Assembly (NCBI GenBank): GCA_014377535.1
Contig: JACMPK010000149.1
Span: forward strand, 1-43,367
Source of the DNA: Gemmatimonadaceae bacterium
GTDB taxonomy: Bacteria; Gemmatimonadota; Gemmatimonadetes; Gemmatimonadales; Gemmatimonadaceae
Direction: 5' to 3'
DNA: 43,367 nucleotides
The translations under genes and the position numbers were made by a program. Below the pieces are notes generated by a model. It had not been told where the DNA came from. It worked only from the letters and a program-made list of their open reading frames with translations, and searched no databases. Position 1 is the stretch's first letter. Every line of letters begins with the position of its first letter. This document shows, in pieces, positions 18,720 through 26,237 of this stretch.

Positions 18720-19781
18720 TCATCGCGCGACTGCAACGCCCAGCGAGACCAGCGCCGCAGCCAGCGCGATCGCGGCCAGCCCGAACGTCACCGCCGTTCC
18801 GGTGCGCCACTGCGACTCGGCGCGCTGCAGCGCCTGCGCAAGCGGCTCCACGGCAGCTGCCTGCGCGGGTTCGTCACCGCTGAACAGCGACTGCTGCATG
18901 ACCGACTTCGCCGCGACGACTTCCTCCATCGCACCTGAGAAATGCCGCTGGTGGATGCGCTTGGCCTGGTCGGGGCCAGGTTCCGCCGCTGCCGCGACTG
19001 CCGCCTTCAATACTGCATTCTTGATGTCGCCTCCGCTCGCCGGAAAACGCTCGGCCAGCGCTCGGAAGTCCACATCCTCGGCCAGCGGCGTGTATTGCGG
19101 ATGGATCTGCACGGTCCAGATGCGTTCACGCTCGTCCACACCCGGCATCTCGAAGCGGACATGCGTGCGGATGCGTCGCTCGAATGCCGGGTCGAAGTTC
19201 ACGGCGAGATTGGTCGCGAAGATCACCACGCCGTTGAAGCCTTCCAACTCGCGCAGCAGCACGTTCACCGTGGTGTTGGACTCGCGCTGCATCGGCAACC
19301 CGACGCCGACGGAGCGACGCGCGGCAATGGCGTCGGCCTCGTCGAAGAACAGCACCGCATCCTGCTCCGCGGCGTTGCGGAACAGCGCCGCGACGTTCTT
19401 CGGCGTCTCGCCAGCCCACATCGACTCGACCTCGGCGTAGTTCACCGAGAGCAGCTTTTTCCCCAGCGCACCGGCAATCGCCTCGGCGCAGATCGTCTTG
19501 CCCGTGCCCGGCGGCCCCGCGAAGTTGAACGCAAGGCCCAGTCCGGTGCTGTGGCGCTCGCCCAGCCCCCACCGCCCGAAGATCAGCGCATGATTGCGCA
19601 CCTGCGCCAACGCGCCATCCAGCATTTGACGCGTTGCCACTGGCAGGATGACGTCGGCGAACGAGCGGACCGGTGTGATGGTCTCGACTGCGGGACGCGC
19701 TCGAAACCGGCCGAAGAACGAGAGCATTGGCGGCGTGGGCATGCGCGCCGGGAGTGCACGAGTCGCGCCAGTGGACGACAC
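18720..19781 (-). CDS. AAA+ ATPase with C-terminal transmembrane segment
   Basis: About 340-353 residues. Single AAA+ module: Walker A GPPGTGKT, Walker B VLFFDEADAIAARR, sensor-1 region GVVIFATNLAVNFDPAFERRIRTHVRFEMP with the arginine-finger pair, resembling the Vps4/FtsH/BCS1 class. The C-terminus ends with a hydrophobic helix (TAVTFGLAAIALAAALVSLGVAVAR), so the enzyme is probably tail-anchored in the membrane with the ATPase in the cytoplasm. No protease domain follows. Start is uncertain: GTG 19781 gives the longest frame; ATG 19742 (MPTPPMLSFFGRF) is the likelier alternative. It diverges from a small gene at 19890, with a decamer array just upstream. Substrate unknown. Confidence 0.87.
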   Translation of the reverse strand: MSSTGATRALPARMPTPPMLSFFGRFRARPAVETITPVRSFADVILPVATRQMLDGALAQVRNHALIFGRWGLGERHSTGLGLAFNFAGPPGTGKTICAEAIAGALGKKLLSVNYAEVESMWAGETPKNVAALFRNAAEQDAVLFFDEADAIAARRSVGVGLPMQRESNTTVNVLLRELEGFNGVVIFATNLAVNFDPAFERRIRTHVRFEMPGVDERERIWTVQIHPQYTPLAEDVDFRALAERFPASGGDIKNAVLKAAVAAAAEPGPDQAKRIHQRHFSGAMEEVVAAKSVMQQSLFSGDEPAQAAAVEPLAQALQRAESQWRTGTAVTFGLAAIALAAALVSLGVAVAR

Positions 19782-19784
19782 CCC

Positions 19785-19829
19785 GAACGATCACGAATCA
19801 TCACGAACGATCACGAACGATCACGAACG
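19785..19829. repeat. Decanucleotide tandem array (GAACGATCAC)
   Basis: Four and a half 10-base units: GAACGATCAC, GAATCATCAC, GAACGATCAC, GAACGATCAC, GAACG. It lies immediately upstream of the AAA+ gene's possible GTG start and 60 bases before the divergent small gene, so it sits in their shared control region. Confidence 0.9.
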
Positions 19830-19889
19830 GCCCATGGTAGCTTGCATCACGCGGCACGATCCGTTGTCGCGCAGCATGGAGCGTCGCGC

Positions 19890-20165
19890 ATGTCGATGGC
19901 ATTTCTGAGGGACGATGCGGAAGGGGAAATGCCCCGCCGCCATTACGGTCTTCCGGCTCGTGACGATCCGGACTACGACAGGGTCTGTGCACGCGCGCTG
20001 CTCGAGGCCGCGCGCGTGGACGAGACGCAGCTGGCCGAACGTGCCACCGGGTACTACTGGGGCGAGCCGTGCCTGCGGCCGCATGTCGAGGTGATCCGAC
20101 TGGAGGCCGAAGCCGCGAACGACGAGCGTCTGGAACAGCTCGCACGTCGCTTTCAGCGGACCTGA
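19890..20165 (+). CDS. Conserved-looking 91-residue soluble protein, unknown function
   Basis: 91 residues, charged, no signal peptide or membrane span, predicted helical (PDYDRVCARALLEAARVDETQLAERATGYYWGEPCLRPHVEVIRLEAEAANDERLEQLARRF). The Met-Ser start at ATG 19890 has GGAG 8 bases upstream. Two cysteines (in VCAR and EPCLRP) do not form a known motif. It diverges from the AAA+ gene, and its end is convergent with the alpha/beta-hydrolase at 20203, 37 bases away. Family not recognised. Confidence 0.7.
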   Translation: MSMAFLRDDAEGEMPRRHYGLPARDDPDYDRVCARALLEAARVDETQLAERATGYYWGEPCLRPHVEVIRLEAEAANDERLEQLARRFQRT

Positions 20166-20202: not shown

Positions 20203-21036
20203 TCACCCAGCCTGATGTTCCACCGCTGCACGGGGCGACGGCGCAAGACGCTGTAGCAGCCAGCCCGCAGCGTCATCGAGCGCATGCGGCGGCAGATGAT
20301 GCCCCGCCTCGTACCAGCGCAACTCCTTCGGCTCCGTCGCCGCATCGAAGAGTCGCTGTGCCCGATCCGGGCGCACGGTCAAGTCGCGGCGACCGTGCAG
20401 CATGAGCAGCGGTCGTCCGTCCAGCTTGCGCACGGCGCGCACCGGATTCGAGAGCAGCCGCAACGCACGCGCATACGGCATGGCATCGGGAAGATCACCG
20501 CCGGCCGCGAGCACCAGCGCACGGACTGCGGATTCGTCAGCCGCCGTCTGCACCCCCAGGAAACTGCCCATGCTGTAGCCCACCACGGCGAGTCGTGCGC
20601 GATCCACCTCCCTGCGTGCGCCGATGTACGCCAACGCGAGCTTCGCATCACGCTGCGCCGTGCGCCACGCGCCGGCAATCGCGAGCGGGCTGCGCATGGC
20701 GCGTGAATCGAACGAGCGCTCGTAGCCGCCCACGATGCCCCACGACGTCTCGTTTCCTTCCTCGATGCGCGCGCCATGCAGCGGCAGGTCTATCGACAGC
20801 GATGCGATTCCCTTTGCGAGCAACGCCACACCAACCGTCTCGGCCATCTGCTCCTTGCGCGAGCTGAAGCCATGCAGCAGCAACGCAGCGGGCGCGGGCA
20901 TCGCGTCGGATGCGGGCAGCAGCAGTACTGCCGGCAGGCGAGCGTCGTGACCGTCACGCCCGAACGCCAGCTCGATGCGGCGACCATGTGCGATCTCGTA
21001 CGTGGCGTTGACGGTCTGCGCGAGGCGGATGGGCAT
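20203..21036 (-). CDS. Alpha/beta-hydrolase, dienelactone hydrolase-like
   Basis: 277 residues, no signal peptide. Catalytic layout visible: oxyanion strand ALLLHGFSS (~51-59), nucleophile elbow VVGYSMGS with Ser155, acid in MLHGRRDLTV (Asp218) and His in YEAGHHLPP (~246). This is the esterase/dienelactone hydrolase or acyl-thioesterase type; substrate unknown. ATG 21036 starts 19 bases after the M20 amidohydrolase stop on the same strand, so the two are probably co-transcribed. The decayed hydrolase gene at 13669 belongs to the same superfamily. Confidence 0.9.
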   Translation of the reverse strand: MPIRLAQTVNATYEIAHGRRIELAFGRDGHDARLPAVLLLPASDAMPAPAALLLHGFSSRKEQMAETVGVALLAKGIASLSIDLPLHGARIEEGNETSWGIVGGYERSFDSRAMRSPLAIAGAWRTAQRDAKLALAYIGARREVDRARLAVVGYSMGSFLGVQTAADESAVRALVLAAGGDLPDAMPYARALRLLSNPVRAVRKLDGRPLLMLHGRRDLTVRPDRAQRLFDAATEPKELRWYEAGHHLPPHALDDAAGWLLQRLAPSPRAAVEHQAG

Positions 21037-21055
21037 GTGGCGACGGCTGGTGCGC

Positions 21056-22498
21056 TCAGGGCGCAGGCTCGCGAACCACCGGCTGCTCGTACGTCCTGCT
21101 CAGCGCCTGCTGGTATTCGGAGTACAACCCCTTCAATCCCGCGAACTCCGCCTTCACTGCAGCGCGGAAGTCTGCCTTGGTGGTGAAGTCGTACAGCAGC
21201 GCGGCCATTGCCTGCGCATCGACCACGAATCCGCCGTGACCAACGGGGCCGAGCGCATCGGCTTCCATCTCGTAGGTATGGAATCCTCCGTTCGACGTCC
21301 AGGCGCTGAATCCCACACCCGGCACGGCGCTGGAAACGCTGCCCGTCTCCTCCCATCCCTGCGGCTTGCCCGGCTCAGCTTGGATCCTGCCGCCACCATA
21401 CCGCTTCACGTGCACGAACGCCGCCTCGTTCAGCGTGCCGAGCGAGATGCCGTCGCGCATGGAGCCATAGGTCTCGATCTTCACCTTGGTGCCCGTCGCG
21501 AGTGCGGCGCCCCGTGCCGCGTCGTCGATCAGCTGCCGCATCTGGCGCAGGTATACCTCGTCCGGATAGCGCACGTAGAAGTCGGCAACGGCGCGATCAG
21601 GCACCACGTTCGGTGCCTTCCCACCTTCCGGGATGATGCCCTGGATGCGCGCTTCAGGACGGAACGTGCCGCGCAGTGCGTCGATGCTGCTGAACAGCTG
21701 ACGCACCGCCGTCAGCGCATTGCGACCATCCCACGGCGTCATCTGGTGCGCCGGCGCACCGCTGAACGTGTAGCGTACGCCGTCGATGTTCAGGCAGCAG
21801 CTGCCGAAGCCTGCGCCGGCACGCTGCGTGGCCAGGCTCGAGTGGCTGCGCACCGCGATGTCGAGGCCATTGAACACGCCTTTCTCGTGCATCACCGTCT
21901 TCGCCGGCGGCGGCATCATCTCCTCGGCCGGCGTGCCGATCACGACGACCGAGCCGGGCGTCTTCGAGGCGACGAGCCATTCCGCGATCGCCTGCGCCGC
22001 AGCGAGGCCCACGGGCCCTTGCGTGGAATGCTGGTCGCCGTGGAAGTCGCCGTTCGTGCCACGCAGCGCGTCGTACTCCACGACGATGCCAAGCACTGGC
22101 CCGGTGTTGGCCTTCCGGTGACGCGCGGTGAACGCCGTCGCAAAACCGCCCGATCCCATCGTCACGTCAAAGTCATGCGCCGTGAGCCAGTCGGTGATGA
22201 TCTTCACCGAGCGCTCCTCCTTGAATCCGATCTCCGGATGCTTCGTGATGTCGTCGGCCATGGCCAGCAGCTCGCCATCCATCAGCGCCTTCGCACGCGC
22301 AGCGATGCGATCACGCGTGGCATCGGGCATGGAGAGTCGTGCGGTCCACCCGCTCACGTCGACCGTGCGCTGCAATACCGCCAGTTTCTGGATCACGTCG
22401 CGTGCGGCGGTGCGCTCGGTCGGTGTGTCCTGCGCAGCAAGCGGACGTGCGCTGCAGGCAACCAATGCCACAAGCGCGATGGTGCGGGGGATTCGCAT
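21056..22498 (-). CDS. Exported M20-family amidohydrolase (aminobenzoyl-glutamate hydrolase-like)
   Basis: 480 residues with a signal peptide (MRIPRTIALVALVACSARPLAAQ; cleavage after ~22). The mature part follows the AbgB/M20D layout: ITKHPEIGFKEERSVKII (~85-102), GIVVEYDALRG, the metal site GHGDQHSTQG-like segment FHGDQHSTQGPVG, VVIGTPAEEMMPPPAKTVM with the catalytic Glu pair, the dimerisation-domain SGAPAHQMTPWDGRNALTAV, and C-terminal VGHGGFVVDAQAMAALLYD. It would cleave an amide bond of an acyl-amino acid in the periplasm, using one or two metal ions. ATG 22498 fits the signal peptide; no obvious Shine-Dalgarno. A heptamer array lies directly upstream. Confidence 0.92.
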   Translation of the reverse strand: MRIPRTIALVALVACSARPLAAQDTPTERTAARDVIQKLAVLQRTVDVSGWTARLSMPDATRDRIAARAKALMDGELLAMADDITKHPEIGFKEERSVKIITDWLTAHDFDVTMGSGGFATAFTARHRKANTGPVLGIVVEYDALRGTNGDFHGDQHSTQGPVGLAAAQAIAEWLVASKTPGSVVVIGTPAEEMMPPPAKTVMHEKGVFNGLDIAVRSHSSLATQRAGAGFGSCCLNIDGVRYTFSGAPAHQMTPWDGRNALTAVRQLFSSIDALRGTFRPEARIQGIIPEGGKAPNVVPDRAVADFYVRYPDEVYLRQMRQLIDDAARGAALATGTKVKIETYGSMRDGISLGTLNEAAFVHVKRYGGGRIQAEPGKPQGWEETGSVSSAVPGVGFSAWTSNGGFHTYEMEADALGPVGHGGFVVDAQAMAALLYDFTTKADFRAAVKAEFAGLKGLYSEYQQALSRTYEQPVVREPAP

Positions 22499-22524
22499 GA
22501 CGGGGAAGGTGAATGGAGAAAGCG

Positions 22525-22573
22525 GTGCGTCGTGCATCGAGCGTCGAGCGTCGTGCATCGTACGTCATACGTG
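22525..22573. repeat. Heptamer tandem array upstream of the M20 gene
   Basis: Seven 7-base units: GTGCGTC, GTGCATC, GAGCGTC, GAGCGTC, GTGCATC, GTACGTC, ATACGTG. The last three bases of most units are identical (GTC/ATC). It lies 27 bases before the M20 start codon, inside the expected 5' leader. Confidence 0.75.
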
Positions 22574-22636
22574 TCGTGCATTCTTGCAGATCGTGCGTCT
22601 GCGTCGCGCCTCGTTCGTTCGGTGCGTGCCGTGTGT

Positions 22637-23797
22637 TTACTGATACTGAATGTACGACAGCGCCGGGCTGAGCTTCAGCAGTTCGCGCGGCGTGAGCAGC
22701 GCATCGCCTTTCTTCGTATCGTTGTGGTAGAACAGCTTGAAGCCGGTGAACTGCACCGGATGGTTCACGATGTACGCCGCGTACGAATCGAACTTGAGCC
22801 ATGGCGGACCCCAGCCGTCCATGTGCATCACGACCTGCACGTTGCGGGTGGGTCGGATGCTCTCCGCATCGGGCACCATCAGGCGCGTGAATCGATGTAC
22901 GACGAGCACCTTGGGCGGCAGCTTCCTGTCGGTGACGAGCTTGTCGAGCGTCCGGATGACGTAGTTGATGTCGCTGGCCATCATCTGGCCGATCCGGCTG
23001 CTCGGGCGCGCGCCTTCCTTGTCATAGTGCATGTAGAACTCGGGATCCACGCCGAGGTGCACGTCGGGGCGCTCGAGGTATGTGAGCAGCGGGGGAAGCT
23101 CCTTCTGCAGCGTGCTGTGCGACGCCTGGATATCCAGGAACAGCACGCCCTTGCGGCTTTTGGCCCACGCATACGTCTTCTCGATCATCGACGCATCCTC
23201 GCGACGGCGCCACATGCCGTCGGCGCCTGGCGCGCCCTGCGCGACGACGGTCACCAGGTGAATGGCCGGCACGACTGGCGTTGCGGGATCTGCGGCGTTC
23301 CACTCGCGAACCGTGCGATCCAGCATGCCGAGCATCTGCGCCTCGGGATATTCACCGATCACACCCATCTTCTTCGAGTGCGGATTGCCGTAGTACGCCA
23401 CGATGCGCTTGCCCGGCAGCAGTGCACCCGGCGCAGCAGCCGGGCCATTCGGCCAGCTCGCAGTGCGTGCGCGGCCAGCGCGGATCGCGGCGTTGTACGA
23501 GGTCTGGTCGCGCGGCTTGCGACCGACGGGCAACCTGGGCATCTCACCCTGCACGGGCGCGACTGCGGCACTGTCAGACGTAACCCTCGATGTGTCGGCG
23601 CTCGCGGTGGAACTGGGGGGCGCTGCGGCATCGCGGTCGCTGCCAGCCAACGGCGCGCGGGAAGCTGCTGACGTGATGATGCTGGTATCGGTGACCGACG
23701 GCGCGGGTCCGGCACGCGCGACATCGTTACTGCAGGCGCCGAGTGCGAACGACGCACCGGCAAGAAACATGGCGGAATTGCAAACCTTCAGCAGCAT
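22637..23797 (-). CDS. Lipoprotein of unknown function
   Basis: 386 residues. The N-terminus MLLKVCNSAMFLAGASFALGAC is a lipoprotein signal with the lipobox L-G-A-C22, followed by a ~85-residue Ser/Ala/Pro-rich linker. From ~125 a folded domain begins: RIVAYYGNPHSKKMGVIGEY, VPAIHLVTVVAQGAPGADG, GVLFLDIQASHSTLQKELPPLL, RPDVHLGVDPEFYMHYDKEG, KVLVVHRFTRLMVP and VQVVMHMDGWGPPW. The alternating strands with Asp, Glu and His at their ends look like a TIM-barrel of the glycoside-hydrolase type; that is inference only. ATG 23797 gives the lipobox at the right distance; GTG 23815 is possible. It diverges from the TPP-riboswitch-controlled receptor. Confidence 0.8.
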   Translation of the reverse strand: MLLKVCNSAMFLAGASFALGACSNDVARAGPAPSVTDTSIITSAASRAPLAGSDRDAAAPPSSTASADTSRVTSDSAAVAPVQGEMPRLPVGRKPRDQTSYNAAIRAGRARTASWPNGPAAAPGALLPGKRIVAYYGNPHSKKMGVIGEYPEAQMLGMLDRTVREWNAADPATPVVPAIHLVTVVAQGAPGADGMWRRREDASMIEKTYAWAKSRKGVLFLDIQASHSTLQKELPPLLTYLERPDVHLGVDPEFYMHYDKEGARPSSRIGQMMASDINYVIRTLDKLVTDRKLPPKVLVVHRFTRLMVPDAESIRPTRNVQVVMHMDGWGPPWLKFDSYAAYIVNHPVQFTGFKLFYHNDTKKGDALLTPRELLKLSPALSYIQYQ

Positions 23798-24042
23798 GAT
23801 GGGAAGTGGCGTCACATGAGGCGGTTGCGTCCGCGTGCGTGCACCGAAGTGCGACGCTCGTGAAACGAGTATGGAGGAAATCGAAAGCTAGCCGCACGGT
23901 TGCTCCCGCTGCGCGCAGCACGTGACGCTCCCGGCGGCGGCAGCCCGCGCGCGGCATCGACCGAACGCATGCACATCGCGCTGCGCACCCTGACAGGACT
24001 GCACGGGAGTATTGCCCGACGGATTAGCTTGCGATGGACATA

Positions 24043-24127
24043 GACCGGGGTGCCCCGTGCCGCTTCTGGCGCGATGGCTGAGAGAGTCCCGCAGAACCTG
24101 ATCCGGATCATACCGGCGTAGGGAGTC
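24043..24127 (+). promoter_or_regulatory. TPP riboswitch (THI-box)
   Basis: The leader contains the conserved THI-box parts in order: CCGGGGTGCCC (24045-24055), GGCTGAGAG (24076-24084), AACCTGATCCGG (24094-24105), the P5 partner CCGG (24113-24116) and GCGTAGGGAG (24116-24125). This is the thiamin-pyrophosphate aptamer. The AGGGAG at its 3' end is also the ribosome binding site, 6 bases before ATG 24132, so ligand binding should hide it and stop translation initiation. The gene so controlled is a TonB-dependent receptor. Confidence 0.95.
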
Positions 24128-24131
24128 ACGC

Positions 24132-26237
24132 ATGACCAGTCACGCCTCCGCGGCTTTTGTCGCGCTCGCGTTTGCCGTCGGCACCGCCGACGCCCAGCAA
24201 TCCACCTCACCCGCTCGTCGCGACAGTACCCGTCGCGACAGCCTCGCGCGCGCCGGCTCGCTCGAAGGGGTCATCGTTCGCGCGGTGCGCGCGAACGGCA
24301 ACGCACCCATCGCACAGACCACCATCACGACGCGCACCATCGAGCGCCGCAGCTTCGCGCAGGACGTACCGATGATGCTGCAAGGCACGACCCCGTCGCT
24401 CACGGCGCATGCGGAATCGGGCTCCAATTGGGGCTACAGCTACCTTCGCCTGCGCGGCATCGACCAGTCGCGCATCAATCTCTCGCTGGACGGCATTCCG
24501 CTGAACGACCCGGAAGACCAGGTGTTCTACTTCGCGAATCTGGCCGACCTCGGCGCCAGCATGCAGTCGGTGCAGGTGCAGCGGGGCGCGGGCACCACGG
24601 GCACGGGCACGGCGTCGTTCGCGGGCTCCATCAATTTCGAGACGAAGCGCGTGCTCGGCGTGCCGCGGCAGGCGGCGGCGGAGATCCAGGTCGGCTCGTT
24701 CGGCGCGCAGCGCCTGATGCTCGAAGCCAACAGCGGCGCGCTGCCGCATGGCTTTGCCTCATCGGTGCGCATTTCCGCGTTGCGCAGCAACAGCTTTCGA
24801 CGCAACGCGGGTGTGGAAGGCATTTCCGGACTCGCGCAGCTGGCCTGGCTCGGCACGCGCGACGTGGTGAAGCTCATGGCGCTGAGCGGCCGGTTGCGCG
24901 ACACATTGTCGTATCTCGCCGTGCCGGTGCAGGACCTGCAGCGTGATCGACGCATCAACCCACTGACGCCGGAGGAACAGGATCGCTTCAGCCAGCACCT
25001 GCTGGCCCTGTCGCACACGCGGCAGCTGGGCACTGGCGTGCAGTACGCGAGCACGCTGTACCGCATCGCGGCCCGCGGCAACTACGACGTGCGCTTCGAC
25101 AGCACGACGATCGGCAACTATGGCCTGGACTTCAACTGGTACGGGCTGACGAGCGCCGTGAATGTCGATCGAGGCGCGCTGAAGCTCACGGCCGGCCTGA
25201 ACGCGAACACCTATGCGCGCGATCACTTCTCGTTCATCCGCCCCGACCTGCAGCGCTCCGTGTATCTGAACACGGGGCACAAGCAGGACGCGGCGTTGTT
25301 CACGAAGGTTGCGTACGCGCACGGGCCAGTGACCTGGTTCGGCGACCTGCAGGTGCGGCGCGCCTTCTTCCGCTATGCGCCCGATGCGGCAGCAGGCTTC
25401 TCCGGCGACGAACCGTCGATCGCGTGGACGTTCCTCAACCCGAAGGTCGGCGTGACGTATGCCGCGCGTTCGAACGTGGACCTGTTCGCGTCCATCGGTC
25501 GCACCACGCGCGAGCCGACACGCAGCGACGTGTTCGCCGGCAATGACGACGTGACGCGTGACGTGTTGAACGACCTGGGCGGACTGCAGCGCGTGCGCCC
25601 GGAGCAGGTGACGAACACGGAGACGGGCGTGCGCCTGCGGAGCGGGACGATGCAGCTGGAGCTGAACCTTTTCCGCATGGACTTCCGCAACGACATCGCG
25701 CGCATCGGTGCGCTGTCACCGCTTGGCGTGGAGCTGCGCAGCAACGTAGGCAAGAGCCTGCGCCAGGGTGTGGAGTTCGACCTGCGCACGCGACCGACAT
25801 CGTCGCTGGTGCTTACCACCGTCGGTGCGATCAGCCGCAACCGCATTGCCGGCTTTACCGACAGCAGCGGCACCACACCGGTGATCCGCCGGAACGTGCC
25901 GCCGCTCCTGTCGCCCGCGGTGACGGGCACGCAGCGCATCGACTGGCGTGCGGCGCGCTGGCTGGATGCAGGGCTCGAGGCGCGCTACCAGGGCCTGAGC
26001 TACCTGCGCAACGACGGCGATCGCACACTGGTGCTGCCAGCGTACTGGATGCTGGATGCGATGGTGCGTGTGCCGCTCCGGCAGCACGACATCACGGTGC
26101 GCGCAACGAACCTGGGGAACTCGCAGCAGTTCGGCAGCGGGTATGCCACGGGTGGCGTACCGAACTACTTCATCCTCGCGCCACGATCGGTGTTCGTGAC
26201 GGTGCGACTCGCGACGCCCCGGGCTTCGCGAGACTGA
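24132..26237 (+). CDS. TonB-dependent receptor under TPP control, putative thiamin importer
   Basis: 701 residues, outer-membrane beta-barrel transporter. Signal peptide at 1-22 (MTSHASAAFVALAFAVGTADAQQ). A short linker with Arg-Asp-Ser repeats follows (RRDSTRRDSLARAG), then a plausible TonB box (LEGVIVRAV), and the plug domain with DVPMMLQGTTPSL, LRLRGIDQSRINLSLDGIPLNDPE and VQVQRGAGTTGTGTASFAGSINF (~78-165). The remainder is barrel, ending in an aromatic-containing strand (FILAPRSVFVTVRLATP). No carboxypeptidase-like N-terminal domain. The TPP riboswitch upstream implies uptake of thiamin, its phosphates or its pyrimidine, energised by TonB-ExbBD. No other thiamin gene is in the window. Confidence 0.93.
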   Translation: MTSHASAAFVALAFAVGTADAQQSTSPARRDSTRRDSLARAGSLEGVIVRAVRANGNAPIAQTTITTRTIERRSFAQDVPMMLQGTTPSLTAHAESGSNWGYSYLRLRGIDQSRINLSLDGIPLNDPEDQVFYFANLADLGASMQSVQVQRGAGTTGTGTASFAGSINFETKRVLGVPRQAAAEIQVGSFGAQRLMLEANSGALPHGFASSVRISALRSNSFRRNAGVEGISGLAQLAWLGTRDVVKLMALSGRLRDTLSYLAVPVQDLQRDRRINPLTPEEQDRFSQHLLALSHTRQLGTGVQYASTLYRIAARGNYDVRFDSTTIGNYGLDFNWYGLTSAVNVDRGALKLTAGLNANTYARDHFSFIRPDLQRSVYLNTGHKQDAALFTKVAYAHGPVTWFGDLQVRRAFFRYAPDAAAGFSGDEPSIAWTFLNPKVGVTYAARSNVDLFASIGRTTREPTRSDVFAGNDDVTRDVLNDLGGLQRVRPEQVTNTETGVRLRSGTMQLELNLFRMDFRNDIARIGALSPLGVELRSNVGKSLRQGVEFDLRTRPTSSLVLTTVGAISRNRIAGFTDSSGTTPVIRRNVPPLLSPAVTGTQRIDWRAARWLDAGLEARYQGLSYLRNDGDRTLVLPAYWMLDAMVRVPLRQHDITVRATNLGNSQQFGSGYATGGVPNYFILAPRSVFVTVRLATPRASRD

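Follow-up and report, generated by a model that had tools for sequence, protein, structure and literature searches.

A TPP riboswitch predicted to control an OMthi-type TonB-dependent receptor in a Gemmatimonadaceae bacterium without thiamin synthesis

TonB-dependent receptors under the control of TPP riboswitches are already known in Bacteroidota, and the described system closest to the present locus is OMthi of Bacteroides (BT2390 type). OMthi mutants of B. thetaiotaomicron need more thiamin once biosynthesis is deleted, and the OMthi transcript does not respond to thiamin (PMC5613172). In most Bacteroides genomes the receptor, pnuT and tnr3 (TPK) form one operon; a biosynthetic operon of Bacteroides is under TPP control as well.

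The window analyzed here was a stretch of 43,367 nucleotides from a soil-type Gemmatimonadaceae bacterium (assembly GCA_014377535.1, contig JACMPK010000149.1). Its receptor was homologous to Bacteroides OMthi (about 25% identity over 91%, reciprocal best match), and in both systems a TPP riboswitch stood directly on a TonB-dependent receptor. Unlike the Bacteroides gene, the window receptor stood alone; the window genome was without thiamin synthesis, and its family lacked TPK but kept ThiL. Much of the Gemmatimonadaceae had a PnuC-type carrier and a NadR-like kinase instead of the PnuT and TPK of Bacteroides. The OMthi-style link with PnuT and a phosphorylating enzyme was seen in relatives and not at the window locus, and the enzyme was NadR-like, not TPK.

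The thiC leaders of other Gemmatimonadota offered a second comparison, as their aptamer belongs to the same riboswitch class and the bacteria to the same taxonomic class. The thiC genes of the family also showed the overlap of AGGGAG and ATG found at the window receptor. The thiC-linked riboswitch controls synthesis, whereas the window riboswitch was placed on a predicted uptake gene.

The riboswitch and receptor of the window

Searching the 43 kb window with cmscan against all of Rfam (4,227 families) gave a single match, at 24036-24141 on the forward strand. The features of the locus were as follows.

24036..24141, + strand: TPP riboswitch aptamer (RF00059), full length, from cmscan; the 3' tail extends 10 bases into the receptor gene
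24041..24045, + strand: 5' strand of P1, UAGAC, from the cmscan alignment; of these bases GAC alone is paired, to GUC at 24125-24127
24120..24125, + strand: AGGGAG, at once the Shine-Dalgarno sequence and a conserved 3' element of the aptamer, from the cmscan alignment and sequence reading
24132..26237, + strand: TonB-dependent outer-membrane receptor, OMthi type, 701 aa, from Pfam domains and the B. finegoldii OMthi search
24258..24284 (boundaries approximate), + strand: region downstream of the signal peptide, probably the TonB box (about SLEGVIVRA), from the family receptors aligned with OMthi

The match to RF00059, at 61.7 bits, exceeded the gathering score of 54.3 (E 7.6e-10, window against 4,227 families) and covered model positions 1-105 of 105. 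An earlier note, made from the letters alone, had read THI-box blocks at this site and proposed the covariance-model search; the search agreed with that reading, and by its sequence the element was confirmed as a TPP riboswitch, for which TPP binding is predicted. In the whole assembly (3.79 Mb, 90.6% complete) the window site was the sole TPP riboswitch (E 1.6e-11). The same search gave matches in 10 of 14 control genomes, which indicated that it works.

The cmscan alignment showed a weak P1, with three of the five modelled pairs standard and two flagged as non-standard. The AGG of AGGGAG lay on the 3' side of the helix that CCU opens, not of P1; GA lay in the junction, and the final G started P1. 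Six bases separated AGGGAG from the receptor ATG at 24132, so the double role of this element as aptamer part and ribosome-binding site, also proposed earlier, was borne out. Folded in isolation, the leader did not show the aptamer in its minimum-energy structure. Covariation in P1 was dropped as evidence, being register-dependent and partly broken.

The receptor contained the Plug domain (PF07715, 44.6 bits) and the TonB_dep_Rec_b-barrel domain (PF00593, 93.5 bits), both over the cut-off. The proposed TonB box stretch opened the plug shared by the family receptors and OMthi; its role is probable, by analogy with other TonB receptors. No solved structure near the receptor was found by sequence search at E 0.001. 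Its relatives in GTDB genomes were nearly all from Gemmatimonadaceae/Gemmatimonas, the nearest at 72% identity. The receptor was taken as a single-gene unit because the next gene downstream, an amidase, lay on the opposite strand. The 43 kb window held no other thiamin genes, as the note had stated. The upstream ORFs at 20975-23671 (898 aa) and 18942-20165 (407 aa), both on the forward strand, had no Pfam match at 0.001.

Among plasmid records, the best relatives of the receptor were three TPP-type receptor loci, two on Persicobacter replicons and one on a Bacteroides finegoldii plasmid, where the receptor was followed by PnuC and thiamine diphosphokinase. A TPP riboswitch preceded the B. finegoldii receptor and one Persicobacter receptor, and the second Persicobacter locus had no TPP riboswitch match (Rfam). 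When B. finegoldii OMthi was searched against the window genome, the window receptor was the best match (E 1.2e-37), followed by another receptor at 2.8e-4. The search was extended to ten family genomes: seven with the riboswitch-receptor pair, two with ThiC, and genome G108, whose receptor lies in an operon. The top match was the riboswitch-linked receptor in all seven genomes with one and the operon receptor in G108. In these eight genomes the E values for OMthi ranged from 1e-36 to 1e-47, and the next receptor was no better than 8e-5, more than 30 orders of magnitude away. The two ThiC genomes gave no match to B. finegoldii OMthi. Alignment of 11 receptors of both phyla revealed 66 invariant columns. 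Given the reciprocal searches and the published link of OMthi to thiamin uptake (PMC5613172), the window receptor was filed as OMthi type, a putative distant relative of Bacteroides OMthi.

Distribution of the pairing and of thiamin synthesis

Scanning of 295 genomes of the class Gemmatimonadetes found TPP riboswitches in 232. The gene behind the riboswitch was read for 97 riboswitches, 67 inside and 30 outside Gemmatimonadaceae. Outside the family, thiC followed 26 of the 30, tenA three and a different gene the last one, and none stood on this receptor; inside it, 55 of the 67 were on a homologue of the window receptor and the rest on thiC, thiM or PnuC. A sample of 89 Gemmatimonadaceae genomes held 82 TPP riboswitches, on the receptor (55; 54 read and one assigned by elimination), thiC (20), thiM (6) and PnuC (1); the two family counts (55/67 and 55/82) overlap and are not independent. 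A TonB receptor controlled by a TPP riboswitch is thus a conserved trait of Gemmatimonadaceae. The same pair was to be looked for in related genomes according to the earlier note, and it recurred there; the note's statement that such receptors are described mainly in Bacteroidetes was incomplete, since the trait is conserved in this family too. No earlier report of the Gemmatimonadaceae case was found in the literature searched, which left subscription journals mostly uncovered.

Two further families of the class had TPP riboswitches on tenA (L054, L075, L081), and several genera of Gemmatimonadaceae had them on thiM(-thiE) (L038, L061, L113, L116, L165). At L068 (G024:C5:127745-127870), the gene next to the TPP riboswitch match resembled a zinc-type alcohol dehydrogenase, not a thiamin gene.

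The exchange of receptor and synthesis was examined in 51 Gemmatimonadaceae genomes at least 95% complete. The riboswitch-receptor pair alone was present in 37, ThiC alone in 10, both in three and neither in one (Fisher p 2.3e-7 for the exclusion of receptor and ThiC, a value that ignores relatedness). The one genome with neither was G108, whose receptor belonged to a PnuC-kinase-receptor run with no riboswitch detected. All 38 genomes without ThiC therefore had the receptor, 37 of them with the riboswitch, and 10 of the 13 ThiC-bearing genomes were without the pair. The swap also occurred inside single genera: g6 (G286 versus G054, G205 and G320), g20 (G251 versus G221, G311 and G323) and g21 (G314 and G325 versus G223 and G259). 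Among the receptor genomes at least 95% complete, 32 of 40 lacked ThiE and 38 of 40 lacked ThiG.

The window genome had no ThiC, no ThiG and no clear ThiE; at 90.6% completeness a missing gene may be a gap, but the window species and two further species of its genus agreed in having the receptor and lacking ThiC. A TenI-like protein, a member of the ThiE fold family (L120:5183-5878, G000:C133), was kept in the window genome without ThiG. TPK was found in none of the 89 family genomes, and the same search was positive in seven control genomes. ThiL was over the cut-off in 79 of the 89 and was present in the window genome and its genus. According to a 2023 paper, which mentions no TonB receptor, thiamin synthesis is less widespread in Gemmatimonadales than in Palauibacterales (PMC10469786).

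PnuC-type carriers and NadR-like kinases

A PnuC-family protein (PF04973) was present in 64 of the 89 family genomes. In 19 genomes it lay within 8 kb of a TPP riboswitch, and 18 of these riboswitches were on receptors, in several orientations. In 47 family genomes the gene after PnuC had the same orientation and encoded a stand-alone NadR-like P-loop kinase (PF13521), short at about 180-190 aa. The kinase adjoined the receptor, with PnuC elsewhere, in G234, G242 and G302. Among the genomes at least 95% complete, the stand-alone kinase was found in 35 of 38 without ThiC versus 4 of 13 with ThiC. The clearest case tying it to thiamin was in genome G311 (C23, L105:8410-9509, minus strand), where a second TPP riboswitch of that genome (109506-109607, minus strand) stood directly before the PnuC-kinase pair. 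In G108 (L176:2447-5869) and G310 (L178:2429-5847), PnuC, kinase and receptor formed a run on one strand with no TPP riboswitch over the threshold; either control was lost or the aptamer has diverged.

The same set was found in a different phylum, Bacteroidota, as one compact locus. Plasmid CP012861 of Persicobacter sp. JZB09 (L227:5346-9275, minus strand) carried PnuC, an AAA_28/NadR-like kinase, a TPP riboswitch (62.7 bits) and an OMthi-type receptor, as in many Gemmatimonadaceae; the receptor differed in having an extra N-terminal CarboxypepD_reg domain. No TPK match was found at this locus, where the kinase stands in the place of the Bacteroides TPK.

By sequence, the solved relatives of the stand-alone kinase were NadR proteins, and its main alternative function is that of a nicotinamide riboside kinase. 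The NMNAT motif upstream of the kinase was absent in 50 stand-alone proteins and present in nine NadR fusions of the family, including that of the window genus. The stand-alone kinases split from the NadR fusions with 95/95 support and did not group with the NadR kinases, and they had clade-specific invariant residues, several of them beside the Walker B and EY-R motifs. In G288 and G299 the fusion and a stand-alone paralog were both present. Since ThiL is kept in a family that lacks TPK, the stand-alone protein is read most simply as a thiamin kinase. We regard it as reasonably probable, on sequence and context, that the stand-alone protein is a new thiamin kinase that provides TMP for ThiL and replaces TPK in most Gemmatimonadaceae and in Persicobacter. 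No prior literature on a NadR-like thiamin kinase was found in a search that left subscription journals mostly uncovered, and an earlier prediction is possible. The Y.P.Q stretch of the solved PnuC was dropped as a discriminator between PnuC and PnuT, as E. coli PnuC also lacks it.

The window genus had no stand-alone NadR-like kinase, in contrast to Persicobacter. The NadR-like gene of the window genome was a true NMNAT-kinase fusion with no special reason for a thiamin role, and was rejected as the thiamin kinase. E. coli ThiK had no match in 14 genomes, a search that had no positive control and shows little. The earlier note expected an inner-membrane partner elsewhere in the genome, and here only a candidate can be named: the single PnuC-family protein of the window genome (G000:C235, L101:5006-5635, minus strand; PF04973, 141.7 bits), which was divergent from the receptor-linked group and not linked to a kinase. 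As the genome has a bifunctional NadR, thiamin and nicotinamide riboside are both possible substrates, and this candidate partner could be a nicotinamide riboside transporter. With no thiamin kinase or dedicated PnuT identified in the genus, its members may import TMP, use PnuC for thiamin or have an unrecognised gene.

Substrate and mode of control

The TPP riboswitch very probably controls translation of the OMthi-type receptor, which would import intact thiamin or thiamin monophosphate (TMP) into a Gemmatimonadaceae bacterium that does not produce thiamin. As to what is imported, in which direction and at which level control acts, and what follows uptake, we infer the following course. When TPP is plentiful, it would bind the nascent leader and the aptamer would close, hiding AGGGAG, which is part of the aptamer, from the ribosome, so that receptor synthesis stops. 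Under TPP scarcity the leader would open and the receptor would be translated, bringing intact thiamin or TMP across the outer membrane. A PnuC-family protein would then carry it across the inner membrane, a kinase would form TMP, and ThiL would convert TMP to TPP.

That TPP turns off translation of the receptor, as the earlier note held, agreed with the locus: control is most simply translational because the aptamer contains the ribosome-binding site and the stretch 23820-24180 showed no terminator-like site. Control by transcription, through Rho or a terminator, appears unlikely, as the aptamer ends at the start codon and an expression platform has no space to follow it. TPP riboswitches that act through Rho are nevertheless known in E. 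coli, and an in-frame start codon followed AGGGAG by 10-20 nt in only 33 of the 55 family receptor loci (about 60%), both of which speak for the transcriptional alternative. The unchanged OMthi transcript in B. thetaiotaomicron (PMC5613172) fits translational control and is not proof of it.

The substrates named earlier were thiamin, thiamin phosphates and the HMP pyrimidine. The family-wide context and the homology to OMthi supported an importer of B1 vitamers, and HMP fell away for the window genome, to which it would be useless alone given the absence of ThiC, ThiG and a clear ThiE. For the family, import of HMP or another precursor that is joined to thiazole in the cell is very unlikely. 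TPP riboswitches do control precursor uptake in other bacteria, the receptors replace ThiC, the enzyme that makes HMP, and a ThiE-type protein persists in 8 of the 40 receptor genomes; against this, the route needs ThiE and a thiazole source, which the above counts for ThiE and ThiG deny to most receptor genomes, and the window genome had no ThiG and only the TenI-like match. Import of intact thiamin (or TMP) is preferred on the same grounds, that most receptor genomes lack ThiE and ThiG. Whether the vitamer enters already phosphorylated bears on the window genus, which keeps ThiL and has neither TPK, a stand-alone NadR-like kinase nor a ThiK-like match (the last from the search without a positive control). 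If TMP or TPP were imported, ThiL would finish the pathway and the genus would need no thiamin kinase. This possibility is real but doubtful, since the related OMthi system is tied genetically to thiamin (PMC5613172), and in other family members PnuC/PnuT-type carriers and a kinase are linked with the receptor, as would suit the import of free thiamin. Finally, the riboswitch could be a relic of a thiC leader on a receptor that serves another nutrient. It does stand on thiC in other families of the class, and the NCBIfam names for the receptor (haem/transferrin and others) were weak and below the cut-off. This is extremely improbable, however, because an aptamer above the Rfam cut-off is retained in 55 family genomes, mostly in the same place before the same receptor, and this receptor takes over from ThiC and is specifically found by OMthi.

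The kinase swap in the relatives is a more novel lead than the window riboswitch-receptor itself: the gap at thiamin phosphorylation directs attention to an enzyme that would be labelled by automatic annotation as a kinase of NAD metabolism. With a thiamin-importing receptor, the pairing would explain how most of the Gemmatimonadaceae can live without making thiamin, and the receptor gene would be a marker of B1 dependence in metagenomes. TPP-controlled uptake of thiamin across the outer membrane would thereby turn from mainly a Bacteroidota story into a trait conserved across a soil and freshwater family that is common and hardly cultured.
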